From: Ianthella basta
Taxonomy: Eukaryota; Porifera; Demospongiae; Verongiida; Ianthellidae
Assembly (NCBI GenBank): GCA_964019415.1
Contig: OZ025868.1
Coordinates: 8,043,649-8,107,648 of the forward strand
Direction of reading: 5' to 3'
Length of the DNA: 64,000 nucleotides
In this document: positions 146 to 47,173 of the stretch, in pieces
Position numbering within the stretch: the first letter of the stretch is position 1
Layout of the letters: each line of letters begins with the position of its first letter
The notes under the pieces: generated by a model
What the model was told of the DNA's origin: nothing
What the model saw: the letters and a program-made list of their open reading frames with translations, nothing else
The model's database searches: none
Program-made: the position numbers and the translations under genes

Positions 146-3100
146 TTAACTACACCAGTTCCGTTTACACCAGATGTCGTAGGACGATGCAACCACATGC
201 TTAATTATGTCAATCTCAAAGTTCTGTCGGTCTTTGGCTTTGGCTTGTAGCAGTTTGAAGAGCTGCTGAAAGCCCACTGTGCTCAGGAAGCCTCTCGACC
301 CGACCTCGAGAGTGATGATAGATGTGTGGTGGGAACAAGCACAGGCAGCTGCAAGGTCCCGGTACCGATGGACCTTCCTCTCTGCAGCGTCTGCAATGTT
401 GGTCTCAAAAGGCACCGTCAGCTCTACCAGGTAGATGGCTGAAGTTCCCCAGATAACCATGTCCGGGCGCAGGTCCGTGGGAGCAATGTCTTGGGGGAAC
501 GTGTACTGCTGGCCCGGTAGGTCAGCTATGACTTGCATTCCTGATGTCAGGTTGCGCTTGGAAAAGTCAAAGATGACCTTGAGCACATCATCGTGCCTGG
601 TGGTGTAGCGTCGCAGACTGAGGGCCTTCTGGCAGGAGTTGAGAACATGGGCCAGAGACTGTACCTCTCCACAGAGTTGGCACCGTGGTGAGGACAGCTT
701 CTTCCACCTGAACAAGTTGGCATTGTGGGGAAGAGTGTCCGTCACCGCGTTGAGAGCAAACTTGAATACCCACTCTGGGAGGCTGAAGATGGCAGTGGAC
801 CAGTTCTGGGCCGCCCTGCCCTCGAACTCCCGCACAGTCAACCCTTGGACTGGAAGGCTAGTGGTGTGAGCCAGTCTGGAGGCGGTGTCCTCGGCCTGGA
901 TCTTGGCCTTGACATGAGACACCACTTTCTTCCTGGGAGCCCCAGGGTCCTCCTTCATTACCCCCACCACCTCCTGGTAAGGCCGGAACAAAGCACACTG
1001 AAGTTGGGACTCACGGAGGGTGATTTGTGTGGCGATAGCTCGGACACTGGAGTCGCTTGAGCACATGTGTGAACCAGCCTTGGCAGCATGGAGCTTCTTG
1101 TACACAGTGACCAGGTGTGGGAGCTCCAGCCCACCGTTGGACTTGGGAAGAAAGAGTCGATTGGGATCAGCAGAGCGGGCCAGACCACACCATCTTTTCA
1201 GAAACCTGGTGGCGATGGGCTGGAGGTGGTTCTGCAACCAGGAGATTGGCAGGTCTGAGATGGACAGGTCCCAGGTGAGACGAGGACAGATGCTGACCTT
1301 GAAAAGCTTTAACTTCTGCTGACGGGTGATGGGAGTGGCATCGACCTTCTCCAGCATGGACAATAGCTTGGTCTTGAGGTGCTCCCTGGATTCCTCAGAG
1401 GTGGAGTGGATGGCCACCGGGGCTCCAAGGAATCGAAATGTGGTGTCTCCCAGGTAGGGGATGGGCTCATTGCCAAGCTTGAGTCCAGGGTCGAAGGCCT
1501 TCCCAGAGGAGGCTTTGATCGCAACACTCACACACTTGGGGACATTAGCCCGCATCCCTGACCAGGCCAACCATGACTCAGTGAGACGCAACAGGTGCTG
1601 GCATGAGGAGGGTCCATCACCGATCAGGGAGGTGTCATCTGCGTACTGCAGCAGGTTGATCCTACTGCGGACGGAGGTGAGGCTGTAGCCAAGCTGGGAG
1701 CAGCATTGGGTAATGGAGTCCACCAGGGTGTTCATCACCGTATTGAAGATGATGACGGAGAGGGGGTCACCCTGGTAGACTCCAAGCTGGAGGTGGATGG
1801 GGACGGTGGTCCACGGCTTGGTGGTGATGATGGCAGTGAGTCCATCATAGATGTTTGACACCAGATGAACCAGCTCCGGAGGAGCATGGTAGTGTGCCAG
1901 AGAGAAGGTGATTAAGTCATGGTGCACACTGCCGAATGCGTTGGCCAGGTCCAGCCAGCAGACACAGAGCGACTTGCGCCTCCTTCGAGCCTCCTGAAGG
2001 ATGGATAGCAGCTTCAGGTGGTGCTCAGTGCAGCCAGGCACACCATTGATGAAGGCCTTCTGGGTGGTGGTGTTGAGGAACTTGTTGTTCACCATGTAGG
2101 ACAACCACCTACCCTTCACCAGGCTGGTGAACACTTTGCTCACGCAGGACGTCAGAGCAATGGGGCGGAAGTTGGACGGGTTGGAGGAGTCATCAACAGC
2201 CTTCTTCTTGCCCAGCAAGTGGATGATGCCAATCTTCCAAGCTGCAGGGACAGACTGGGTGGTCCAGCAGCAGTTAAACAAGTGCAGCAGTGTGGGCAGT
2301 AATGAGGGGCACCTCTTGAAGACGACATAGGGTATCTGGTCGGCAGGACTGGGGGTGGATGAAGACTTGAGGCCGGAGATGACACCTGTCACCTCCTCCT
2401 CAGTGAAGGGGTCAGTGGACATGGGAATGGACGGGGGAGGGCAATCTGGCATCCACTCAGGGCGGGTAAAGGTCCTGGGGCTGGCAGAGTATACCTGAGA
2501 AAAGTGCTCTTCTGCTTGCTGCTGACTGAAGGAAGGCTGGATGGATGCATAGCAGTCATCGTCAAGGACCCGTCGCGCAAACTTATGAATGTCTCGATGG
2601 CATTCCCTCCTCATCTGCTTAGCAGAGGCCTTAGCAACTAGTTTCTTAGCTTCCTTGGCCAATTTGCTGTGATTGCGGACTAGCAGATGAAACTTCTCAG
2701 CTAGCGCTTTGACCTCCTCAGGAGAGGACCCACTTCTCCTAAGCTGACGCAATTCTCTCTTGGCAAACTTCTTCTCCTTAGCAACCTCACACATTGCATT
2801 CCTCTTAGCTGCTGACAGATTGTCACGCTGGAGGTGTTGATGCCGTTGATTGTCTGGCATGACTCCAAACCTGGACACCAAGTAGGTGTACAGGCCATGA
2901 GTTATGGTATACTGCATGGCATTGACATCCCCCTCTTGCAGCACAACAGGGGTGATGTTGGCTAGTATGAAGTTGTCAACCTCAGTCCACTGCTCTGGGG
3001 TGGAGGGAAGTTTGGCACGGGGTAGGAGTGTTGGAGGTAGGGGCCGGTGGGTGACTGGTGGAGCAGGCTGTGCATTGGATAAGGGTGGAGGTGATGCTGA

Positions 3101-3199
3101 CACAGGGTGGATTAGTGATGGATTACTCAGCTCATCTGGGAGGGATACACTCTTGCAGGAAGCATTTGTCCTCAGATGTGTTTCAAGTCGAGTTTCCAC
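146..3199 (-). CDS. Reverse transcriptase with C-terminal restriction-like endonuclease (non-LTR retrotransposon)
   Basis: The open frame is 1017 codons, counted from a GTG that is not a real start. Reverse-transcriptase motif A is near residue 417 (WLDLANAF). The motif B region is near 474 (VYQGDPLS) and the catalytic YADD box is at 519-522. A C-x2-C-x7-H-x4-C knuckle sits at 840-856. A restriction-like endonuclease follows, with RPD near 912 and ELTVPFE near 927, as in R2-like elements. Residues 130-200 are rich in Lys and Arg and may bind nucleic acid. The product would copy the element RNA at a nicked chromosomal target. The frame has no internal stop, so the copy is young or recently active apart from the break at its 5' end (see 3183-3437). 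The clade within the endonuclease-bearing group is not resolved by eye. Confidence 0.9.
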   Translation of the reverse strand: METRLETHLRTNASCKSVSLPDELSNPSLIHPVSASPPPLSNAQPAPPVTHRPLPPTLLPRAKLPSTPEQWTEVDNFILANITPVVLQEGDVNAMQYTITHGLYTYLVSRFGVMPDNQRHQHLQRDNLSAAKRNAMCEVAKEKKFAKRELRQLRRSGSSPEEVKALAEKFHLLVRNHSKLAKEAKKLVAKASAKQMRRECHRDIHKFARRVLDDDCYASIQPSFSQQQAEEHFSQVYSASPRTFTRPEWMPDCPPPSIPMSTDPFTEEEVTGVISGLKSSSTPSPADQIPYVVFKRCPSLLPTLLHLFNCCWTTQSVPAAWKIGIIHLLGKKKAVDDSSNPSNFRPIALTSCVSKVFTSLVKGRWLSYMVNNKFLNTTTQKAFINGVPGCTEHHLKLLSILQEARRRRKSLCVCWLDLANAFGSVHHDLITFSLAHYHAPPELVHLVSNIYDGLTAIITTKPWTTVPIHLQLGVYQGDPLSVIIFNTVMNTLVDSITQCCSQLGYSLTSVRSRINLLQYADDTSLIGDGPSSCQHLLRLTESWLAWSGMRANVPKCVSVAIKASSGKAFDPGLKLGNEPIPYLGDTTFRFLGAPVAIHSTSEESREHLKTKLLSMLEKVDATPITRQQKLKLFKVSICPRLTWDLSISDLPISWLQNHLQPIATRFLKRWCGLARSADPNRLFLPKSNGGLELPHLVTVYKKLHAAKAGSHMCSSDSSVRAIATQITLRESQLQCALFRPYQEVVGVMKEDPGAPRKKVVSHVKAKIQAEDTASRLAHTTSLPVQGLTVREFEGRAAQNWSTAIFSLPEWVFKFALNAVTDTLPHNANLFRWKKLSSPRCQLCGEVQSLAHVLNSCQKALSLRRYTTRHDDVLKVIFDFSKRNLTSGMQVIADLPGQQYTFPQDIAPTDLRPDMVIWGTSAIYLVELTVPFETNIADAAERKVHRYRDLAAACACSHHTSIITLEVGSRGFLSTVGFQQLFKLLQAKAKDRQNFEIDIIKHVVASSYDIWCKRNWCS

Positions 3200-3437
3200 A
3201 CTTGGGGCATGGTAGCTTCTTGGCTTTGCCTCTTGCCTTGTTGGCCAATGTCCCTTGAGCTAATAGATGCTGATAGTCTGCTCCACGCCTTTCAGGGCAA
3301 CCTTTGTAGTGGTTCCCAAGACTTCTGAAACATTTCTGACAGAAACAACAGCGTTTGGATGTAGACTGATCCATGGAGGAGGTGTTAAAATGAACAGGCT
3401 GCCAGAACTTGAAAACTAGCAATGGGGTTGCAACCAA
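3183..3437 (-). CDS. N-terminal zinc-finger part of the same retrotransposon, in a shifted frame
   Basis: This frame encodes a CCHC-like finger (CFCQKCFRSLGNHYKGC) and then a basic stretch. It ends just after CPKCGNST. The reverse-transcriptase frame starts in the +1 frame over the same bases and reads TRLETHLRTNASC. The two halves together would make one C-x2-C...H...C finger, so one protein has been split by a one- or two-base indel or is read by frameshifting near 3185-3200. N-terminal fingers that recognise the target DNA are usual in R2-type proteins. The ATG at 3437 is a possible start, but it is not supported by anything else. Confidence 0.65.
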   Translation of the reverse strand: MVATPLLVFKFWQPVHFNTSSMDQSTSKRCCFCQKCFRSLGNHYKGCPERRGADYQHLLAQGTLANKARGKAKKLPCPKCGNST

Positions 3438-19668: not shown

Positions 19669-21868
19669 AGCCGGAAAGAAGCAAAGGGTGAAATTGGGCG
19701 ACTCTACAAGTCTCAGGAGAGGCTACGATCACTGATGAACGCAAACAAAGCATAGAAACACGCACGGAGAAGAGACAAGAGCGAGTCTTGCAAGTAAAAT
19801 GGCCGACCCTGCCTTCGCGGGGAAGCCCCGACCAAATTTGCGTGGAATTTTGTGGGGGGGGGAGGGGGCAAGCTACAGCTTATATATACAGTGCAGCACC
19901 AGCTGCCGTGAAAATGTGCGCCCGATCATGTGAAGGTAAGGCAGGTATTAAGACATAGCTACCTTCTACTATTGCAAACATATGCTTTTGGCCAATGAAT
20001 ATTAATCTTGCAGTGTGCAGCATTGAGTAGCTATGTTGCAACACTAATACTGCCTAGATATGCAGTTGTCAAAGTGCAACAACATGCACTGGGGGCAGTG
20101 TGTCTGTCCTGCCAGCTCTCCATTTGTAGAATGAGGAGAGCAATTGATTTCATCAGTAGGTATTGGGCAGGATTGCTATAGGAATCTACCTAACATGATG
20201 GCTAGACCTCTGTCTGCCTGGTAGTGGTGGATGATGCAATATAATATTATTATTTCATGATAAAGTGTAGGTGGGCTGACTCCTCTGGCTCATGTGGACA
20301 GGTGAACTCATGATGCTGTAATCTTATTAGGACAGGAAGTGGTATTATAGCTATTTATAGGGATGAGTCATATACCGTTTTTAGTGTCCACCAACCTTTC
20401 AACATGATTGAATTTTAGTATAATTTTATTTGCAGACAAGTTTCTCAGAGCAAGAAGACAAACACATAATCCTTGCAGTGCTCTTATATGTGTTCATAAG
20501 GTAATGCGGCCATTAGTAGTGGGTTTGGACAAGTTACTAAGTAGTGAGAGAATGTTGACAGGGTTGTCAATCACAGATGTTCTTTTACAGAAAGTTTAGC
20601 TTCATTTGCATGATGCGTACGTTGTGCGTGTACCATTTACTATCATGACCATAGTTAGACATGCTGAGTTTGATAGTAGACTAACTAAATGTCTTTTTGG
20701 GTGATCGAGTTCAGCCAGGAGTGCACACAACTTATGTGCTCCTGGTCCAGCAACAAACATTTTTATTCCAATGCAATGTCGCTGGTCACATCTTCACCAG
20801 GCCTACAAGTCTAGCTAGTGTACACCTGTGATGAAGCTTTAACTTATTTGTACTATAGCAAATTTCGTGTGGCTTGACTATTATGTGAAAACTGAAAAGG
20901 AGAGGGTAGAAGGGTTTCAGAGCCTAGTAACATATTTTGATTTGTTGCTGCAAGCTAGGGTGTATCAGCATGAAGACGTACGTGTGTACAGATACAGTAT
21001 ACACTGTAGTGTTTTCCAAGCATACAAGTGCTGAAAGCATGCAGAAACAATCCCTGGTGCGTGGTGAATGACAGCTGTTCTGTGGCATGACATTGTGCTG
21101 AGTACAGACATGCAAGAGGCAATAATTGTTGAGAATGTCGCTGAAATGTTAGTCTGAATGGCAATTTGAAATGTCTGCATAATTAACATGCATGCACATG
21201 TGGCTGGTCTGTAACACCTATATTGCACTGATTAGCCAAATCATAGAATTGAAAGGGTGGGTGATTACTGAGCACAGTATATTATATAATAATATATAGT
21301 TTGCAGGATTGAAATACGTATTGTATAATTAATTTTGATTATTTGTATTCCGTGTAATGGATTGCACTGAGCATAGTTACAGCTGTTATGAGTGTGATAT
21401 AAGCTCACTCTTTTAGGAGAGAGCCATATTAATGTAAAATAATAATACATAAGGCACACATGCGCACTGCCTTGGACAATTAAAAGCAATGATAACCATG
21501 ATAAACAGGTAATACAGAGTACAGTACATGTAGAGTACAGCTCACTTTCACTAGAGCTCACTTTACACGCTTCCCATGGCACCATTAATTTTTATGGTAT
21601 CCAAGTTGGATGACATCATTATACTAATCCTATAGGTTTTCCACATCCTGAACCTGCTCATGTACAGTAGCCTGATTTCATAATTCACCATGGTCTGTTG
21701 TTAGGCTGATGCAATGCATCACATGCCATTTGCTATTTAAGGGAAGATTTGCAAACTTTGCCCATTCAAGCACTTTAGCTTTATATACAAATTAAGTGTC
21801 CTCGAGACTGGTTGTGTGCAGAACGCTTATATACCCCGAGCTCTTTGCTGAGTTTTGAAGAGTGAACA
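19669..21868. other. FIH upstream region and left end of the 8-kb duplicated unit
   Basis: The FIH promoter should lie just above 19668. No clear core element stands out. From about 20290 onward the sequence aligns with 28310 onward, marking the left part of the tandem duplication. No gene is supported. Confidence 0.55.
21827..21833 (+). promoter_or_regulatory. Putative TATA box of monooxygenase copy A
   Basis: TTATATA lies 36-42 bases upstream of the ATG, and TATAC and CCGAGCTC follow. It is perfectly kept in copy B at 29834-29840. The short distance implies a very short 5' leader. Confidence 0.45.
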
Positions 21869-28068
<6,200 letters not shown>

Positions 28069-28309
28069 GTGGCGTACACAAAGAGCTGGACTGTACCAAT
28101 GAAACTGACACTGCATATTGAGGTCACGAATTTATTCTGGACTATAACATTACATTTTACTGCTTCATCGATCATTTTCCGAATATATTCATTTGTCCAT
28201 GGCCACTTTTGCTCACCCAAAACGTGTATATAGATACAGTATACACTGTAGTGTTTTCCAAGCATGCAAGTGTTGAAAGGTATGTAGGTGGGATGAAACT
28301 CCTCACGTG

Positions 28310-29875
28310 GATGGTTGTGAACTCTTAGATGATGTAATCTTATTAGGATAGGGAGTGGTATTATAGCTATTTATGGGGATGAGTCATATGCCATTTTTAG
28401 TGTTTAGGTCCACCACAACAACTTTTCAACATTGAATTTTAGTATAGTTTTGTTTGCAGACAAGTTACTCAGAGCAAGAAGACAAACATTATAATCCTGG
28501 CAGTGCTCTCTTATATGTGTTCATAAGGTAATGCCATCAGTAGTGGGTTTGGACAAGTTACTAAGTAGTGAGAAAATGTTGACAGGGTTGTCAATCACAG
28601 TTGTTCTTTTACAGAAAGTTTAGCTTCATTTGCATGATGTGTACGTTGCTTGTACCATATACTATCATGACCATTGTTAGACATGCTGAGTTTGATAGTA
28701 GACTAACTAAATCTCTTTTTGGGTGGTCAAGTCCAGCCAGGAGTGCACACAACTTATGTGCTCCTGGTCCAGCAACAAACATTTTTATTCCAATGCAGTG
28801 TCGCTAGTCACATCTTCACCAGGCCTACAAGTCTAGCTAGTGTACACCTGCGATGAAGCTTTAACTTATTTGTACTATACTAATAGCATATTTCGTGTGG
28901 CTTGACTATTATGTGAAAACTGAAAAGGAGAGGGTAGAAGGGTTTCAGAGCCTAGTAACATTGATTTGTTGCTGCAAGCTAGGGTGTATCAGCATGAAGA
29001 CGTACGTGTGTATAGATACAGTATACACTGTAGTGTTTTCCAAGCATGCAGAAATAATCCCTGGTGCGTGGTGAATGACAGCTGTTCTGTGGCATGACAT
29101 TGTGCTGAGTACAGACATGCAAGAGGCAATAATTGATGAGAATGTCGCTGAAATGTTAGTCTGAATGGCAATTTGAAATGTCTGCATAATTAACATGCAT
29201 GCACATGTGGCTGGTCTGTAACACCTATATTGCACTGATTAGCCAAATCATAGAATTGAAAGGGTGGGTGATTACTGAGCACAGTATATTATATAATAAT
29301 ATATAGTTTGCAGGATTGAAATACGTATTGTATAATTAATTTTGATTATTTGTATTCCGTGTAATGGATTGCACTGAGCATAGTTACAGCTGTTATGAGT
29401 GTGATATAAGCTCACTCTTTTAGGAGAGAGCCATATTAATGTAAAATAATAATACATAAGGCACACATGCGCACTGCCTTGGACAATTAAAAGCAATGAT
29501 AACCATGATAAACAGGTAATACAGAGTACAGTACATGTAGAGTACAGCTCACTTTCACTAGAGCTCACTTTACACGCTTCCCATGGCACCATTAATTTTT
29601 ATGGTATCCAAGTTGGATGACATCATTATACTAATCCTATAGGTTTTCCACATCCTGAACCTGCTCATGTACAGTAGCCTGATTTCATAATTCACCATGG
29701 TCTGTTGTTAGGCTGATGCAATGCATCACATGCCATTTGCTATTTAAGGGCAGATTTGCAAACTTTGCCCATTCAAGCACTTTAGCTTTATATACAAATT
29801 AAGTGTCCTCGAGACTGGTTGTGTGCAGAACGCTTATATACCCCGAGCTCTTTGCTGAGTTTTGAAGAGTGAACA
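28310..29875. other. Intergenic spacer of the tandem duplication
   Basis: This segment is the second copy of 20290-21868. It is colinear apart from small indels, for example a 15-base deletion near 29046. No gene is supported. Confidence 0.8.
29834..29840 (+). promoter_or_regulatory. Putative TATA box of monooxygenase copy B
   Basis: TTATATA lies at the same distance from the ATG as in copy A. Confidence 0.45.
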
Positions 29876-35782
<5,907 letters not shown>

Positions 35783-36001
35783 GTGGCGTACACAAAGAGC
35801 TGGACTGTACCAATGAAACTGACACTGCTTATTGAGGTCACAAAGTTATTCTGGACTATAACATTGTTTGCATCATTACATTTTACTGCTTCATCATTTT
35901 CTGAATATATTCATTTGTCCATGGCCACTTTTGCTCACCCAAAATTCTGAATTAAGATACATATATGAAGTGAGGGCTTCTCAGCTGGCTCAGGCATCAG
36001 A

Positions 36002-37769: not shown

Positions 37770-38436
37770 CTAGTCTCCCAGCCCACCACTTCCGCTAACA
37801 AAATGGCTGAGGAATAGGTGGTCTGGTTAGTCAGGCGTCGCGTGACCACTCCTTCCGCGAGGAGGGGTCACGCGACGCCTGACTATGGTCTGGTTAATGC
37901 CCCTCCGCTTACCATTCTTGGCAAATGGCCGGCCGGCGTTGTGCTTCAACATCCAGATCAAGCCGGCCGTCTCTCCTACGATCGCCTAACCATATAACTG
38001 GTTATATTTGGCGGTAGGTCACGTGAAGAGTTCGGTTGTCCGACCACACAGCAGATGGTTTGGACCAGTGTAACCTCCCTCAACACTAAATGACCTGTCA
38101 CATCACAAATCGTGATGGAGAAACAACGGAGAGACGACGGCAGATCCGATTTCGTGCCTCCTGGAGTGGAAAGAAAGGGGAGGAACAACAAACAGGGAAA
38201 CCAACACCAACAACACTATAAAGCCGCAAGGAAGGGAAGGGAAGGGTGGGCGACAGCGAAAGCGTTCACTTCTTGACGAGAGCAAGGAACGTCGGTAACG
38301 TTGCGGCGCAACGCAACGACGAAATGATTTGCCACACGTTCGGGCTCCAGCCATTTAAATTAGCGGTTCCTCCTATTGCACGGGTGTTTTTTCGTATCGG
38401 TTTGCGGAAATTAAGTTTGGAATGGGAACGAGATTA
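37770..38436. mobile_element. Probable nested MITE block (TAGTCTC ends) with an internal palindrome
   Basis: The left end is TAGTCTCCCAGCCCACCACT, then TCCGCTAACAAAATGG. The right end is GGGAACGAGATTA. The left side is the inverse of 47098-47163. A perfect 20-bp inverted repeat with an 18-base loop is nested at 37828-37885. No target duplication was found, so the outer limits are tentative. Confidence 0.4.
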
Positions 38437-39101
38437 AAATGGCCGCTGAAAGGCTGTGCTCGTGCGTGTGCACGGTTGGACGCTTGTTTGCAATATTAGC
38501 TACTTTACAGTTACTATCAAGGTACAGAAATCAACACTGTGCAGTGTTTGGATGTCTGTCAAATTGTAAATACGCCATTTGGCTCTTCCTTTCAAGCGAA
38601 TATTTGTTAGTGAGTATTATCATCGACACTTCATAGCTAATGAATGCAAGTTTTCCTCCGCTCCTGGTTCTGCTGCTGTAATCACTAGGTAGTATGCTTC
38701 ACTTTGATGTTGTAAATTTGCTTGTAGAATTTTTTTGATAAGAGTTAAACATTGTTTGAATATACCTGTGATGATGTGTTATAGGTATAACTACTCACCT
38801 AAACCGTCACTATTTCAAACTGGGGTAATTCCGTGGGGTTGGTCTACAACTGCGTATTGAGAAGGAGTCCGCTCACTCACGAATGGTGTTGTGCTAAATG
38901 TTCGTTGTGAATGAAGAAGAATCTGTACCCTAGTGACTGAATTTCACTGGGTTACCTTATCTGTGATGCTCCAGTTAGTGGTACAATGTCCAGTGTAATT
39001 TATTGTGTGTATTGCATAGGCGGTGTGTATGAAGTGAAGCCAGTCCTTGCTCCCATGCAGAATTTATAAACAGTGTTATTCTTTTTAAATAAATGCTATG
39101 C
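38437..39101. other. Non-coding interval downstream of the RAG1-like gene
   Basis: I see no supportable gene. A 65-codon frame from 38439 starts directly after a MITE end and has no family resemblance. The 3' untranslated region of the RAG1-like gene should lie just below 39102. Confidence 0.5.
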
Positions 39102-42100
39102 TTAATACTTGGTTATCTTACTAGGTGGCTGAATCAAGTCTTTCCGGGTCATTTGTTGAACATGATGCTCTCTGAGAATTAGTTTCAGTTGATTTAAGGG
39201 ATCCTTAATTGTGGCAAATTGACGCTGAAGTTGGTTGAATTTGTTGTGAACAGATTCTCCCCCTTGTTCACCATGGAAGCCAAGGCCCACGTGCCACAAC
39301 TTCATCCATTGGATGACATGCTCTTGTAAAATATGCATCTTGGGAGTTATAGCACACGCCGGGAACATCTTCTGATATTGCTTTAAGAATCTTTGGATGC
39401 TGGATTCTACATAGATTGGAAGTACAGGAATGACAAAATTTTCTATGCAGAATCATTAATGGAACAGGAATTAAGTCTTACCTAAGGAAGCAATGTCGGC
39501 ATCGAACACTGGCTGTGAATGGGAATACCCATTGTGGCAATCTCCGAACAGGGAAAACAATTTCTTGTATGCTTGTGAGAGAAACTCAACTTCAGGAAAG
39601 TTGGCCGACTCTGCAGCTGCTGTGGTCACCATGCTTCTGGTAATGAGGTCAATGTTCTTTGGCTAAAGAGGTTACATTGTATGCAGTAGCAGCAACTACA
39701 AAGTTAAGGGTATGTTATGGATGCTACAGTACATTGAATTGTGCACATTTGTATCACCTGCAGACAAGTGTGCACATGATTGCCCACAAATGCGCCTCCA
39801 TGGTATGCTTGACGATGTACATTGCAGCTAGACAGTGCCTCCTCTAGACCGTGGACAAATGGACCATCTTGTTTGGCAAATGTCAGCTTCGCTTTCCTCT
39901 CCGTGATCATTTGCAGCTATACGAACCAAGAACAATTATGCTATAATTATTCGATCATAATGATAGTATATAATAATGAACAGTTTGTTATATTCAATCA
40001 TTATTGAAGGAGCAGATGTATTATACCTGACTCGTTGCCTTCTCCCTTTCTTCACAAGCTTCCTTCTGTAGCTGCTCAATGAAAGTGTCAGATGTGGGGT
40101 CGGAGTCGCACATGAGGATCAGAGTGCCAGCCATTTCCTCTGTCATCTTAGCATCATCCAGAAGTGTCTTCGCTCTTTCCTCCTCATTGCTAAGTTCCTT
40201 GTACGTTCGAAGAAACTCAATGAATGTCTCTCTTCCTCTTGTCTCGAGTAAAGCCTCAGAGGCCAGGGCTTTCTCATAGCCTAGGCGCAAGTCCAACTCC
40301 TGGCAAGTCGTTTCTAACAATTCGAAGCATTTGCTAAAGATACCCAAGCTGAGGTGTAGGGCTGGAGGACAGACCTGTACATACAGTGTAAGGAAGAAGC
40401 ATGTTTAGTATCATGATTTTGTATTACTATAATGGACTATGTAATTGGGACGATTGCTGTTTTCATACATGTGAATATAGATGGTACTGAGCATGCATGC
40501 ACATATAGCAACAAGTAGTTGCTTTGGTTATGAAAGTCTTAATCATGTACTAATGTTTTGAAACTGCTGCATGAAGATCTTCGCATGGTATACAGAGCTG
40601 TTCCTGTCGCCACATGAATGCTCAGTAACATTCAAGTTCATTCAATGCTTTAGTATGAGCCTCTATATTATATAATGCATCTTATTTTAAATTACCTGTG
40701 TCAGAGGAACATCTATGAAACGCTGGTAGGCTACATTCTTGAACTCCTTCACTCTCTTTAAATTGCCACCAGAGGCTAGAAACTCCGCACAGTTCTTCTC
40801 AATGGAAGACAATGTCCGTTTGGGGATGGCATTGGCGACTGAGGTGAGCTTTAGCTGACTTAGCTCAATCTCACACCACAAACAACAGTGCCGTCCTATA
40901 TGTACAAAGCAATTTTTATATTGAGATGAACAATCATTGTATTTGCATTCTGCATGTATATATAGTCTATATGAATATATACATATATGGACAGTGGGTT
41001 ATAAGGCTAACCGTTTGCTCCTGTTAGGCCATATACACGGCATAGGAACTCATAGTCACCGAACACGAAGAAACGTATGTTCTTTCCCCTGTATGAATTG
41101 ATGCATTCATGCATGCTTACTGTTTGACGTGTGTGTCTACCATGAGTTCCTGCACTATGAAACTGGGCTTACTGCCATTGAGCTGTTTCCATATCTTGTA
41201 TTTCCTTCCTGTACTGTTGAAGGGCCACATGAAGATTAAAGGGGTTGTCTCCAGCCTTAAAGATAGCAAATACCATGGTGTTGTAAACAGAATTGACATT
41301 TTGTACATTACAGAGCTGCAGGGACATCTTAAAGCTTCCTCCTCCCTTGTCTCCACCGAGTTTGATCCACACTTCATCTTCCGGTATCACACCATCATGC
41401 CATGTAAGCTTTCCAGCCCTGTATGTAATATTGAAATGCCACCTAAGATGTGGGATTTAGAGCATGGGATACTAGGGCCCAATGTGCTCAAGTACCAAAT
41501 GGTGTAAATGCCACAGCATTTAAGTGTTATACATCCTTATCAAATTAGCTACTCACCCATGCATCATCACACGTTTTTGTTATAACCTCTACAGTAGTTT
41601 GTTAACCTCTACAGTAGTTTGTGAACCTCTACAGTAGTTTGTTAACCTCTACAGTAGTTTGTTAACCTCTACAGTAGTTTGTTAACCTCTACAGTAGTTT
41701 GTTAACCTCTACAGTAGTTTGTTAACCTCCACAGTATCACGTTTTTATTACTAAGTCTTGCGACAATGGTTGAGCTCACGTGGTTAAGAGAAAACATCGT
41801 AGGATTTTATAAATACCAAAGGGTCTCACTATGGCTTAGTCACCCCTCAACAAAAGGTTATTCCAGGCTGGAAGTATTTGTAGTGTACAAAGGCACTGCA
41901 TGCATGTTGGGGTGTCTTTGAGATTTACAAACAGCAGTTAGAAGCATGCCCATTACCGTGTCAATGGGATGTGTATATAGAGTTTTGCCCAGTGTTAAAG
42001 CTTTGCGTAAATGACGTAACCCCCTTCCGGTCACGTGGGCAATAGTTGGAGGTTTGCGCAGGTTGGAGGTATGCGCGTAACATATATATGCGTGCAGCAT

Positions 42101-44807
42101 ATATATATGTATATATGCTGCTGTAGATGTTATGCTTTGGAAAGTTATTACTGCATGCACGCCAGTATATATATCTACATGTGTACTCCATATTATATAG
42201 AATTCTATCACAAGGCTACTCTTTCATCGTGCACATACAGAATATCACTATTACCTTTGATGTTTGTTTAGCAATGAGAATATTGCTTCCTTCAAATGCA
42301 GTATCTGCACTAGGGGTGCAAGCCGAACCTCACCACCATCACCAGCATTTGGGAAACTCAATGGTACATTCTCAGCTTCAATGGCCAAATCCAGATTGTC
42401 ATCAATAGTCCTTCTCATTTCTCCTTCACTAGCCAACTTGATGTCCCACTGCTTCAACCACCTAAAATGTAGATAGAATTTGTTTTGTTTTTTTAATTTT
42501 ATCTGGGCCACAGTAGCCAGTGTTTGAGCATGCACCAACCGCAGCATGCCTTATGTGTAGAATATGTAATGTATAATGTATATTAACTTCTACCGTATAT
42601 ATATTCATGTACCTTCGAAGCCATCTTAGCTTTAGCCATGGTAACCCAAGACCTGCTTTCAGCTTGAGCACATCAGTGCTAGATACACTCAATCCAACTT
42701 TCTTTAGCAGGCCTGCACGCTCCTCTGATGACATTTGGTTCAACTCGCTTCCAATTTGACGTGATCTGTCATTAATGGATGAGCTGTGCTTGGGTTAACC
42801 ATGCATGCTTGCATGCTGTAAACTGTGTTAGATGACATGGATTTGGTATCGGTATACAGTAATGTATGTGGTCCCACTAACCTGGATGCTTCATCTTCTC
42901 CGCTGATGTAGTCTCGAACAGATGTGAGCGCAGCAGTGCGTTTCTGAAGGGTCCTCTGGTGTACTTGGCATGATGGTTTACGATGCTTTGAAACTCTCAT
43001 CAGGTGCATAGGCTGTGAGGATATGCAACATATTAATAGTTACTAAGTTGAACTTTTTCTTATAAATAGTTAAGTTAGTTTGTACGTGTAATGCTTGCAT
43101 GCATGTGTGTTATTTAATTATGTTGTTTGAATCCAATACATCCACACTGCGCGAAGTTCTACGTATGTGCATATGCATTCACTATAGTTTGTGTGGTTGT
43201 ATACATTGTTTTTATTCCTGCATGCAGCATACCTGTCCACCTAAGAGGACAGTTTGTAGCAGTTGGTCCACTGCTGAGGTTTGATTGACAGAGATTAATC
43301 ACTGGGAATATTACACCAACCAGCCTCCTACACCAATGGTGTCTCAGGAGGCTGGGGGGCATCACGCCCTATTAATGGCAACCAGTGATCACCTGAGACA
43401 CCATTGGTGTAGGAGGCTGGTTGGTGTAATATTCCCAGTGATTAATCTCTGTCAATCAAACCTCAGCAGTGGACCAACTGCTACAAACTGTCCTCTTAAC
43501 AACCTTGCGCCAAGTCACGCTTTTGTAAATGACTTGCAGCCTTCCCCCATTAGTATTCGCTCTTGTCGAAACCACAAGTGTTTCACTAGTGGTGGACACA
43601 AGAGTAGCTAGTCATCCTACCATCCTTCAGTACGCCACACTGATGAGCCCCAACTAGGGCGAAACAGCTGTCTGTGGCTCTACCATCTTTGTAGGATGAC
43701 TAGCGGGGGAAGGCTGTGATCACTGGTTGCCATTAATAGGGCGTGATGCCCCCCAGCCTCCTGAGACACTATTGGTGTAGGAGGCTGGTTGGTGTAATAT
43801 TCCCAGTGATTAATCTCTGTCAATCATACCTGTCCACCTGTTGGCACTGTGATGGTGTTATCAGTGCCACACGTACTTGATGAAGCCATCATTCTTCGGG
43901 TGAGGTGGCCCATTACTCTGCGTTCAACAGTGGATGGTGTGCTGTTGTCGGGCGCATCTAAAACTTGTCGTAGAGTAATGTGAGACGGCGTGTGGGCATT
44001 TGGAAGAGAAGAAGGTGCTCCTGTGCAGAAGCTGAGATGGGTGCACAAGCTTTGCAATGGCACAGATGTGGTACAGTTCCCATTGGTACACTTGTATTGG
44101 AGAGCACCTAGTGAAAACATGAGTAGGTCTGAAGGCTTGGTAATACCCCCTGTTGTGATGGTGTGTCTGCAGTTTGTCACATGACATTGGCAGCTTTCAG
44201 AGATCACTTGCTGCACCAGGCAATTGCCACAGAAAGTGTGGCTACAACTGAGTTGCACTGGCTGGTCTAAAATGCTTCCACAGATCTTGCACGTGAAATG
44301 CTCAAGGCTCAGTGGAGGTTGCAGTGGAGCAAAATTGGCCAATTGCAGACTCATGCTGCTTGTACGGAAGCTGGGCACTTGCTGCATTACGATCCGCACT
44401 TCATGGACAAGTGCACTAGAACCCAACTGTTGTGGACTGGGTCCAGTCTGTGGTGGTCTACCAAGATGCTTGCTTTTTTTGGGTCGTCCTCCCTTCGCTT
44501 GCATGTCATGAAGCTGGCAGGTGATGCAGTTTTCTTCTGCGTGTGGTGACCACTGCCTTGGTGACAGTGTACTCAAATAGCTTACGTTAGCTTTCAGCCG
44601 TTCTTCATGTAGTTTCATGGACGAAAAACAGTTGATGCAGAAGGACTTAGGTTGCACATCCATTTTGTCACCATGAATCCTCACACCAAAAGCTGCCTCC
44701 AAGTTCTCTTCATAAAGGGAGCAAAGATAGCGGCGCGCTGCATTCCTTGAGAATCTGCTTCCACAGATGCGGCATAAGTTCTCTAAACTTGCTAGATGAT
44801 GATCCAT
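39102..44807 (-). CDS. RAG1-like protein with N-terminal zinc/RING modules and DDE core, 11 exons, 1000 aa
   Basis: Exons: 43830-44807, 42882-43012, 42613-42783, 42255-42461, 41173-41418, 41012-41088, 40696-40895, 40027-40374, 39758-39916, 39482-39662, 39102-39406. All use GT/AG with matching phases, and the frame has no stop. The N-terminus has the RAG1 zinc pattern: LCRICGSRF (C12, C15), FCINC (C57, C60), WSPHAEENC (H89, C94, C97). A C3HC4-like RING follows (C173-C213), then a C-x4-C...H finger (C240-C261). Core candidates: D519 (IKLGGDKGGG), D589 with C608/C611 (D-x18-C-x2-C, the spacing of RAG1 D708/C727/C730), H924-x4-H929 (RAG1 H937/H942) and E950 (GGESVHNKF; RAG1 E962). Related families are Transib and N-RAG-TP. 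It may be a domesticated host gene or an intron-bearing transposon; I see no terminal repeats. The start could also be 44837. Confidence 0.88.
41581..41735. repeat. 20-bp minisatellite, about 8 units, intron 4 of the RAG1-like gene
   Basis: The unit is GTTAACCTCTACAGTAGTTT, nearly invariant, and contains the palindrome GTTAAC. Confidence 0.95.
43228..43839. mobile_element. Foldback element inserted at an exon/intron boundary, carrying a hammerhead ribozyme
   Basis: A 15-bp direct repeat, CATACCTGTCCACCT, flanks the insertion (43228-43242 and 43825-43839). Inside, an arm of about 108 bases (43243-43348) meets its near-perfect inverse (43390-43499) across a loop of about 41 bases. A central region follows (43500-43718), then another partial copy of the inverse arm plus inverted loop (43719-43824). 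The centre has its own inverted flanks (GCCTTCCCCC / GGGGGAAGGC) around the ribozyme. No protein is encoded. On the gene strand the 15-bp repeat contains the exon 1 donor site. Confidence 0.85.
43607..43704 (+). ncRNA. Type I hammerhead ribozyme with minimal stem III
   Basis: The conserved core is complete: CTGATGA (43640-43646) and GAAA (43661-43664). Stem II is GCCC/GGGC with loop CAACTA. Stem III is CAG/CUG with no loop, followed by the U-C cleavage position (predicted cut after 43672). Stem I is GCCACA/UGUGGC (43634-43639 with 43673-43678), six perfect pairs. Past internal loops of 13 and 12 bases, stem I continues as a 14-bp perfect helix (43607-43620 with 43691-43704). Stem I is open-ended, so the topology is type I. 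A very short stem III is known from animal retroelement hammerheads, which often act as dimers. It is antisense to the surrounding RAG1-like transcript. Confidence 0.9.
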
Positions 44808-44837
44808 TGACCTATCATGATAACAATGATGATACAT

Positions 44838-45834
44838 AATTTTTTATGCATTATTAATTTTTCATGTATTTTCATTAGCAATGGTGATTGCAATTGTGAA
44901 ATGTTTTCATTTGTGGTATAAGATCTTGTGCAATTTTGTAAATTCATGACTTAACAGCTGCTTCATCAGATATGCATTCATAACTGTATGTGCGCAGGTC
45001 CAAAGTTAGCATGCATAATGCATAATTATTATCAGAGGATATATGTAATAAGCACATCTTGAATCTTCGAATTCTGCAGTGGACTTGCATGCATGTACAT
45101 CATATGGCTTCTGTTTACTTATAATTAGCGCAGCTTTTATGGCACCCCAATGTTTGCATAAGTGGCCATGGTAAGTGATGTCACGCGCGAGCATGTTTGC
45201 AGCAACCCCGCGCATGATCAATAATTCATTATAATAAAATACTTACCAGTTCCCTTTGGGTCCGTTGCGCGTACGTACAGATATATAGGCGATCGAAACT
45301 GCTGCGATTAGAGTCCTTCGCTAGAGCAGGGTTTACGCGCTGCACAATTTTAAACGATGCAAACAAGCAGTATATCCGGCCCAGCCGGATGCACAAGCAC
45401 AACATCGCGAAAGACCGCCAAACTACCGCACTAGCACTTGAAACTAACGCTCAATAAATCGCATTAATGATATGTAGTGAAAAATTCTACATTAAAATGT
45501 ATGGCATGGTAATGAAGGTCACTGTCCAGTCTAGCTGTCTCTGCTAATGCTGTTCCCAGGAAAACTTGCGTAGCTTGACGAAGTACACCTGAAAAATGGG
45601 AAAATACATGCAGTAACATACGTGACCGTGCAAACTGATGACGTCATTACAACCGTCCAAACTTCCATTTTAAAACTAAGTTTCCACGCAAAAACACCCG
45701 TGATTGGTCCGTTCGTCGGGTATCCATTTTTACAAGGAGCATGCACCTTTCCACTCCCAATATTGCTAGGAAGGGAATGAGAATGGGCGCCTCGGCATTA
45801 ACCACGTCTAACTGCGTTAAACTCCATTATATAT
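44838..45834. other. Upstream region of the RAG1-like gene
   Basis: No further exon or clear promoter element was found. AT-rich sequence gives way to a CpG-containing stretch at about 45240-45420, which may be the promoter region. This is inference from composition only. Confidence 0.4.
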
Positions 45835-45931
45835 TAGTCTGGCTCGCTAGACCGTCCCAATAAACGCCTTGGGGCGACCCTTCCTTACCACGCCTACCGG
45901 CGCTTATGGGACGGTCTAGCGAGCCAGACTA
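45835..45931. mobile_element. Small foldback element with perfect 25-bp inverted ends
   Basis: TAGTCTGGCTCGCTAGACCG then TCCCA at 45835-45859 is exactly inverted at 45907-45931. Only about 47 bases lie between. No clear target duplication. Confidence 0.75.
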
Positions 45932-46343
45932 GATGTCTTTGGGCCGATTCCTTGGTTCTCGCCAGCCCAAATAATTCTGGCCAATCAGATCGCTGCTTGG
46001 TCACGTGTCTACCGAAAACCACGCACGAACCTCGTACGTGAGGCTGAATAGGGAGGAGTCTCAAGGTGTAAGCGTTCTTTCTTGGATTATGGATAGTCCA
46101 CGATTGGGGATTATGGATAGTCCACGATTGGGGATTATGGATAGTCCACGATTGGGATCCAGTTCTGTGGCATATGCAGGATCCATAAAAGAACGTTTGA
46201 GAGTCATCTCCTATACCCTCGCGTACGAGGCTCACGCGTGGTTTCGTAAGCACGTGATCAAGCGGCGATCTGATTGGCCAAAAGTATTCGAGATGCGTCG
46301 AGGCGAGCCAAGGAATGGGCCCAAAGATACCAGACCAGGGGGG
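45932..46343. mobile_element. MITE with imperfect inverted arms of about 150 bp and an internal 24-bp tandem repeat
   Basis: The left arm has CTTTGGGCCGATTCCTTGG, then CCAATCAGATCGCTGCTTGG, then TCACGTG. The right arm is its diverged inverse, ending CCAAGGAATGGGCCCAAAG. The centre has three 24-bp units containing GGATTATGGATAGTCCACG (46084-46155). No coding capacity is seen. Confidence 0.65.
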
Positions 46344-47173
46344 GGTCGGTCAAGGTCACGTGTGTCCGCAAAATGGCCGACGCTGCTGCTCTTTCCTGTG
46401 TATTTTACCTATACTAGCTAAGAGCAGACATATTTCGAGAAATACGTCGCATCGCTTGTTTCTTTGCTTCTGAGCACACAGTTGGACAAGGGCTATCAGA
46501 AAATGGACCCTTCCCCGCCCTTCCCCAGCATCTAGGTAGGTTTTGCGAGCATTTTCCAACACCGGTATACGAGTGTTCTCTGATGCTGGCTACGAGGCAG
46601 ATGGGGCCTAATCTGGAGTACTGAGCAAGTGCTCCTGTGGAAGTGACTCCTTAGAAGCTGGTAGCGAGTCAGCATTGATCATTTCAGGACTGCAAGACTG
46701 ATAGGTTGACTGCTTCTGCAATGGGAGTGTAATCGGCAGCCACGTCCTTGCAATCGTCTTGGTTCTGTACATGATTTGTCACATTCAATAGCAGGGATGC
46801 TAGAAATGGCTTAAACGTGCTGGCAATCCTCAAGAAACGCTGCGATAGCTTGCAAAACTAAATGGTGAAAGCGGTCAGACAATTAAGCCCAATCCACCGT
46901 ATGGCTCCTTGGCTACGTACGTACGGGTCATACTAGGGGCGCGAATGCAGTACAAGGCCCTGCCATGGCTCAGGGTATGTACATTCGGCCTTGGAGCACA
47001 GTCAGCTAACATATGGAAACGCGATTAGAATGTCAGGAATGCAATTATTGAGGTGCTGGTATTGCGCAATCCCAGGACTTGTCCGACCCCCCCTGATACC
47101 AGACCACCTTTTCCGCGGCCATTTTGTTAGCGGAAGTGTTGGGCTGGGAATGAGACTAAGTATTATCACTGTA
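46344..47173. other. Repeat-derived non-coding interval
   Basis: GGTCGGTC and GCAAAATGGCC near 46345-46377 are echoed in inverse near 47080-47130. The right side (47098-47163) matches the MITE left end at 37770 in inverse, and the interval ends GGGAATGAGACTA. No gene is supported. Confidence 0.45.

Follow-up and report, generated by a model that had tools for sequence, protein, structure and literature searches.

An intact-looking DNA transposon, very probably of the Chapaev superfamily, with a RAG1-like N-terminus in the sponge Ianthella basta

Introduction

The described systems closest to the locus considered here are the Chapaev transposons that have a "Chapa" domain and a RING, which occur in two Chapaev subgroups and were treated in a paper reportedly by Kapitonov and Koonin. 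Passages of PMC4411706 (2015) place the N-terminal Chapa domain of these two subgroups before a RING, as in RAG1, cite Kapitonov and Jurka (2007) for Chapaev with both parts, and infer an ancestor that had both the Chapa domain and the RING. According to an excerpt of PMC3985635, the DUF1280 family corresponds to Chapaev transposases and groups with RAG1 in one small clade. The hallmarks given for Chapaev in part of PMC4079192 are a target site duplication (TSD) of 3-4 bp, CAC/GTG ends and the motifs C(2)C, LH and H(4)H, and horizontal transfer of Chapaev is reported there as well. CACTA, Mirage, Chapaev, Transib and RAG1 all have C(2)C and H(3-4)H (PMC12730594, in part), and thus this spacing marks the whole clade rather than RAG1. 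As for RAG-like elements, the RAG1L transposon proteins of amphioxus and molluscs have the same N-terminal zinc motifs and RING (PMC7204232, in part).

Here, we analyze a stretch of 64,000 nucleotides from the demosponge Ianthella basta (GenBank GCA_964019415.1, contig OZ025868.1, positions 8,043,649 to 8,107,648), hereafter the window. The original prediction, made from the sequence alone, saw in it an intact RAG1-like gene, possibly a domesticated one. Judged from its sequence and its genomic copies, the feature is almost certainly an intact-looking cut-and-paste DNA transposon of the Chapaev superfamily (CMC clade). What are its borders? How close is its protein to RAG1? And what can it tell us about the origin of the two halves of RAG1?

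Borders, Termini and Insertion Site

The borders were found by comparing the window with the rest of its own genome (209 Mb in 96 contigs). Homology with two other copies, C18 and C21, starts exactly at 38379, and homology with a third, C9, stops exactly at 45702 (Table 1). The termini of the element are CACGGGTGTTTTT...AAAAACACCCGTG, and the CAC...GTG termini that are a hallmark of Chapaev lie within its inverted repeats. Terminal repeats were said originally not to be visible; this was wrong, as the first 17 bases of the ends at 38379 and 45702 agree at 16 positions and ATTG is duplicated on both sides.

The flanks of the window, joined with a single ATTG, were used as an empty-site query against the same genome and gave 11 matches. 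Six other places span the junction at 95-100% identity, two of them at 100% over 250-251 bp, and two further places span it at 67-69%; the remaining matches are the window's own two flanks, which overlap by exactly 4 query bases, and one 34-bp piece. We read the six places as paralogous empty sites, so that the Chapaev element would have landed in a copy of a different repeat, with the 4-bp duplication as the result. As both ends are present in only one copy, the TSD length of 4 bp rests on one insertion together with the six empty sites.

The host of this insertion is an outer repeat of about 2.06 kb (37771-47158) with inverted ends TAGTCTCCCAGCCC.. and ..GGGCTGGGAATGAGACTA, to which a 9-bp duplication, AGTATTATC, belongs, and the middle of which is matched by six other places at 95-100%. 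A 52-bp inverted repeat at 37776/47149, tried as the ends of the element, was rejected as part of this outer repeat.

Table 1. Features of the element, by position in the window.
Feature	Position	Strand	Basis
DNA transposon, very probably Chapaev, 7,324 bp	38379..45702	gene on (-)	copy borders and empty sites
Terminal inverted repeat CACGGGTGTTTTTTCGT, 3' side of gene	38379..38395		16/17 bases alike with the other end
Terminal inverted repeat, 5' side of gene, reverse complement CACGGGTGTTTTTGCGT	45686..45702		end comparison
Target site duplication ATTG	38375..38378		flank comparison and empty-site query
Target site duplication ATTG	45703..45706		flank comparison and empty-site query
Exon 1: RAG1-like N-terminal zinc motifs, RING finger, then Cys/His finger	43830..44807	-	
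Exon 2	42882..43012	-	exon join
Exon 3, first-read model; start probably 42765 instead	42613..42783	-	sister-copy acceptors
Exon 4	42255..42461	-	exon join
Exon 5: putative first catalytic Asp (D519, GGDKGGG)	41173..41418	-	
Exon 6: putative second catalytic Asp (D589)	41012..41088	-	
Exon 7: C608-x2-C611, putative zinc pair	40696..40895	-	
Exon 8: LH motif, then possible coiled coil	40027..40374	-	
Exon 9: conserved RQAYHGGAFVGNHVH	39758..39916	-	
Exon 10	39482..39662	-	exon join
Exon 11: H924-x4-H929, putative catalytic E950, stop	39102..39406	-	

Sister Copies

The gene is not a lone one: the genome search gave three incomplete sister copies and, in addition, related families. In C18, exon 11 and the greater part of exon 10 are missing, as is the right tip, and about 3 kb has been inserted. 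C9 retains exons 1-4 only, exon 1 with one gap. C21 has no exon 1, and stops interrupt its exons 2 and 7. The window copy alone among the four has both ends, all exons and an open frame. Except for the right tip of C18, the sister copies share the borders of the window copy wherever they reach them. At the left end, three genomic copies including the window are identical over 222 bp, and a fourth place matches over 55 bp at 95%; at the right end, two copies including the window are identical over 223 bp, and C18, its tip absent, matches over 195 bp at 99%. Aligned stretches of more than 300 bp are 96.8-99.8% identical to the window, and shorter ones, in tandem repeats, as low as 95%. Such identity, together with the identical terminal 222-223 bp, points to recent movement.

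Over 1172 codons, counted in exons aligned whole and gap-free, the window differs from the three copies at 2 synonymous and 11 amino-acid-changing codons; the latter include the two C21 stops in exons 2 and 7 and one stop at the last residue of C21. Within the reach of small numbers and dead copies, these differences show no sign of constraint for a host task.

Gene Structure

The minus-strand gene (44807..39102) joins 11 exons in frame into a protein of 1000 amino acids without an internal stop, and in the first-read model all 10 internal donors are GT and all 10 acceptors AG. To this extent the predicted structure stands, and its exon 3 acceptor is probably 18 nt off. At 42784-42785 the window copy alone has AG, whereas C18, C9 and C21 have GG; an alternative acceptor 18 nt further in leaves a frame open for 994 amino acids. 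Since the latter is kept in all three sister copies, the start of exon 3 at 42765 is preferred and probably marks the real acceptor.

The border of exon 1 and intron 1 carries an insert of 583 bp (window 43229-43839) that has long inverted repeats and, on either side, a 14-bp duplication (ATACCTGTCCACCT) which takes in the splice donor. The window and C9 copies share this insert and C18 does not have it; it is possibly a mobile element that enlarged the intron.

Protein Domains and Homologues

The motif residues are D519, D589, C608, C611, H924, H929 and E950, and these positions, like the N-terminal zinc pattern and the RING, agree with the original description. Pfam DUF1280 (PF06918) matches residues 475-572 (E 1.4e-12, 48.1 bits against a cut-off of 25), and RAG1_imp_bd (PF12560), the importin-binding region in the RAG1 N-terminus, has its best stretch at residues 39-114 (E 1.7e-5, 25.0 bits against a cut-off of 23.3). 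The RING model zf-C3HC4 scores 20.3 against a cut-off of 21 in the whole protein and 26.9 in the exon 1 frame alone. A phmmer comparison with PDB finds mouse RAG1 residues 102-375 (E 4.5e-8), and the RING matches TRAF6 nearly as well (E 4.3e-7). The two Pfam matches and the mouse RAG1 match rule out a chance resemblance; the D-x18-C-x2-C and H-x4-H spacings, described earlier as those of RAG1, are indeed equal in mouse RAG1.

Among 8000 scored candidates, 29 homologues were found, 27-36% identical to the window protein. Their hosts include the sponges Ephydatia muelleri and Sycon ciliatum, Hydra, Antedon, two starfish, a sea cucumber, Lytechinus, amphioxus and the hemichordate Ptychodera flava, whose homologue of 1089 amino acids (P0001) is 31% identical over the full length. 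DUF1280 is found in 28 of the 29 and RAG1_imp_bd in 10 (E up to 0.1), several of the homologues being fragments or lacking the N-terminus. The motif residues are widely conserved in the 30-row alignment, window included: D519 in 29 rows (one S), D589 in 29 (one gap), C608 in 26 (three gaps, one G), C611 in 26 (four gaps), H924 in 29 (one gap), H929 in 28 (two gaps) and E950 in 26 (three gaps, one Q). Core identity to the homologues reaches at best 37%, and in a core tree of 25 rows, drawn from this protein family only with no Repbase, Transib or RAG reference in it, the branch of the window row is long (1.26) and no sister of it is supported.

A profile of the 29 homologues gave 51 PDB matches from E 0.072, mostly on a coiled-coil-like stretch. 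These weak matches to coiled-coil chains, the best at E 0.072, give a hint of a coiled coil in exon 8; the RAG1 core is not among the matches of this profile with E up to 10. In a scan of viral contigs, none of 29 candidate stretches was confirmed as a relative.

Relation to RAG1

The profile of the 29 homologues was compared with that of 16 vertebrate RAG1 proteins, hand-chosen from 120 listed. At whole length the two match collinearly over 708 columns (probability 98.8, P 9.7e-17), the listed part ending before H-H-E. When the halves are taken separately, the N-terminal halves match strongly in hhalign (probability 99.8, P 1.3e-29, 237 columns) and the cores weakly (probability 17.4, P 0.0014, 166 columns); crossed controls of core against N-terminus give 0.2-0.3. 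The aligned part of the cores pairs the second Asp, the Cys pair and the LH motif correctly; the first Asp and the H-H-E end lie outside it. From these split results, the N-terminus of the window protein appears plainly homologous to that of RAG1, and the core, by its order of motifs and the weak profile match, looks like a distant relative. A tree of the N-terminal part branches without resolution.

Membership of RAG1 itself is not supported by the core, which is that of DUF1280/Chapaev and matches RAG1 at the weak level just given; seven families were found in the protein (E up to 1), and PF12940, the model of the RAG1 core, is none of them. Neither PF12940 nor a human RAG1 core query found anything in the genome, both searches being run without a positive control. 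For a GG-x-P stretch after the RING, the whole-length match made homology with the RAG1 nonamer-binding domain tempting; this was set aside, since a profile comparison of this region only gave P 0.07 and aligned it to another part.

Vertebrate RAG1 and the sponge protein are thus alike in the order of parts, the N-terminal zinc motifs, the RING and the finger that follows it, and in D-x18-C-x2-C, H-x4-H and E. They are unlike in that the core sequences are barely similar, the C2-to-H2 interval is about 106 residues longer in the sponge, no match to the nonamer-binding domain is detectable, and the sponge element is mobile and without a visible RAG2 partner.

Comparison with Other Transposons

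All the Chapaev hallmarks that were tested are present: DUF1280, CAC...GTG ends, a 4-bp TSD, C(2)C, LH, H(4)H and the DDE residues. With the Chapaev elements that have both Chapa and RING, the sponge element shares these features and also the RAG1-like N-terminal zinc domain and the RING; it differs in its sponge host and in its 27-36% identity to the 29 proteins found, none of them from Repbase. RAGL/ProtoRAG transposons are similar in their CAC ends and, in the molluscan and amphioxus forms, in the N-terminal zinc motifs and RING, and according to part of PMC7204232 they have a 5-bp TSD and a RAG2L gene, unlike the 4-bp TSD without a visible partner here. Transib has CAC ends, C(2)C and H(3-4)H and DDE as well, but lacks the RAG1 N-terminus and makes a 5-bp TSD (passages of PMC8355894, PMC7204232 and PMC12730594). 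The Aplysia N-RAG-TP also carries a RAG1 N-terminal-like sequence in a transposon; as an excerpt of PMC8355894 has it, that element consists of such sequence throughout, whereas in the sponge protein a DDE core follows.

The claim that one protein joins both halves of RAG1 stands insofar as N-terminus, RING and RAG1-type catalytic layout occur together in a sponge, but not as a novelty (PMC4411706 and PMC7204232, in part). The kinship of a RAG1-like front end, a RING and a DDE core in Chapaev is already published. No earlier report of the sponge element was found among the titles and opening lines of abstracts searched; Repbase, the usual home of such elements, lay outside the search.

Related Families and Neighborhood

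Nineteen loci, mostly chosen for N-terminal matches and excluding the window's sister copies, were examined in the genome. In twelve, at least one match that ends before residue 160 is accompanied by a core match, nine of these twelve having at least five core pieces, and some pairs of loci are 93.9-99.2% alike over 6.9-9.9 kb. DUF1280 occurs at no fewer than nine places and RAG1_imp_bd at no fewer than eleven. From these counts, the genome holds several Chapaev-like families with RAG1-like N-termini. L017 and L023 (C5, C2) represent one other family with such an N-terminus and a core, and L019, L020 and L021 (C1, C22, C4) another; both have long stretches 96.7-99.2% alike, apparently inside larger repeats, and the edges of these other families were not found within 10-kb stretches. 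Elsewhere, at G000, C5:9.0-10.3 Mb, open frames of about 140-560 residues whose RING matches the query are densely clustered, which may reflect a TRIM/TRAF-like expansion.

The neighboring gene is HIF1AN. Its closest species-named protein, surpassed by two unnamed ones, is that of Halichondria panicea, a demosponge (56%), which lends modest support to the early-branching animal originally proposed as the source. Next best, tied at 53%, are a frog protein and Em0010g680a, which we take to be a protein of Ephydatia muelleri. The window also holds a tandem segmental duplication of about 8 kb (20302-28222 and 28317-35944, at 95.5-97.5% identity), in which one frame matches DOMON below threshold, and a minus-strand open frame of 1037 residues (149-3259) with reverse transcriptase and below-cut-off zf-RVT matches, probably a non-LTR retroelement.

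Alternative Readings and Evolutionary Implications

The idea of a domesticated RAG1-like host gene had two attractions: the many introns, and the fact that, of the four copies found, only that in the window has all exons and an open frame. Inverted termini, a 4-bp TSD, paralogous empty sites and near-identical incomplete copies speak against it, as does the ratio of 2 synonymous to 11 changing differences with no sign of constraint. Nor do introns mark domestication, because the matches to other families of this genome are likewise split into numerous pieces, as would hold for genes with introns. We regard domestication as very improbable. A RAGL/ProtoRAG transposon, direct kin of RAG1, would explain the RAG1-type N-terminus, the collinear whole-length match and the CAC ends, but two hallmarks of RAG transposons, a 5-bp duplication and a RAG2 partner, were not found here. 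Outside the gene the element has 723 + 895 bp with no open stretch above 79 amino acids, and no RAG2L gene was found inside its termini. Kelch and PHD models matched none of 10 scanned open frames (67-121 amino acids; flanks and introns 1 and 4), one of which has a weak Ndc10_N match (E 0.087). With a core that is DUF1280 and matches RAG1 weakly, and with the empty genome searches for the RAG1 core, run without a positive control, such a transposon is hardly credible. The element is far better read as Chapaev.

On top of the Chapaev identification stands an evolutionary claim: that full-length RAG1-type proteins were ancestral to the Chapaev-Transib group, that the RAG1 N-terminus descended vertically, and that the sponge family is an early witness. 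The strong match of the N-terminal halves, the same order of parts and the spread of the family over sponges, Hydra, echinoderms, a hemichordate and amphioxus are in its favor, and the scenario was proposed earlier in a passage of PMC4411706. However, the N-terminal tree lacks resolution, Chapaev horizontal transfer is reported in part of PMC4079192, and the sponge location alone gives no date. We consider vertical descent plausible, somewhat short of an even chance. A further proposal, less likely than not, is that the complete RAG1 plan, meaning N-terminal zinc motifs, RING, following finger and DDE core with a C2/H2 zinc site, was already present in sponge transposons; N-RAG-TP would in that case be a Chapaev fragment, and the halves of RAG1 would never have needed fusing.

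Possible Mechanism and Significance

The single recognized gene of the element encodes a DDE transposase, which presumably binds the CAC-ended inverted repeats and may cut at the border between CAC and flank with an RNase-H-type active site of D519, D589 and E950, the C2/H2 zinc site bracing this site. Insertion of the ends into target DNA at a stagger of four bases would account for the ATTG duplication. The RAG1-like zinc motifs and RING, which have a common origin with those of RAG1, may serve regulation or dimerization. The borders, inverted repeats, TSD, empty sites, sister copies, protein family and conserved motifs are observed, whereas we infer this catalytic chemistry, the zinc binding, the role of the RING and any present-day activity of the copy.

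The accepted origin of RAG1 is not changed by the sponge Chapaev. Being intact-looking and recently mobile, it is a good test object for the role of a RING in a transposase, and likewise for the question of whether RAG1 received its N-terminus by descent, together with the core, or through a fusion.
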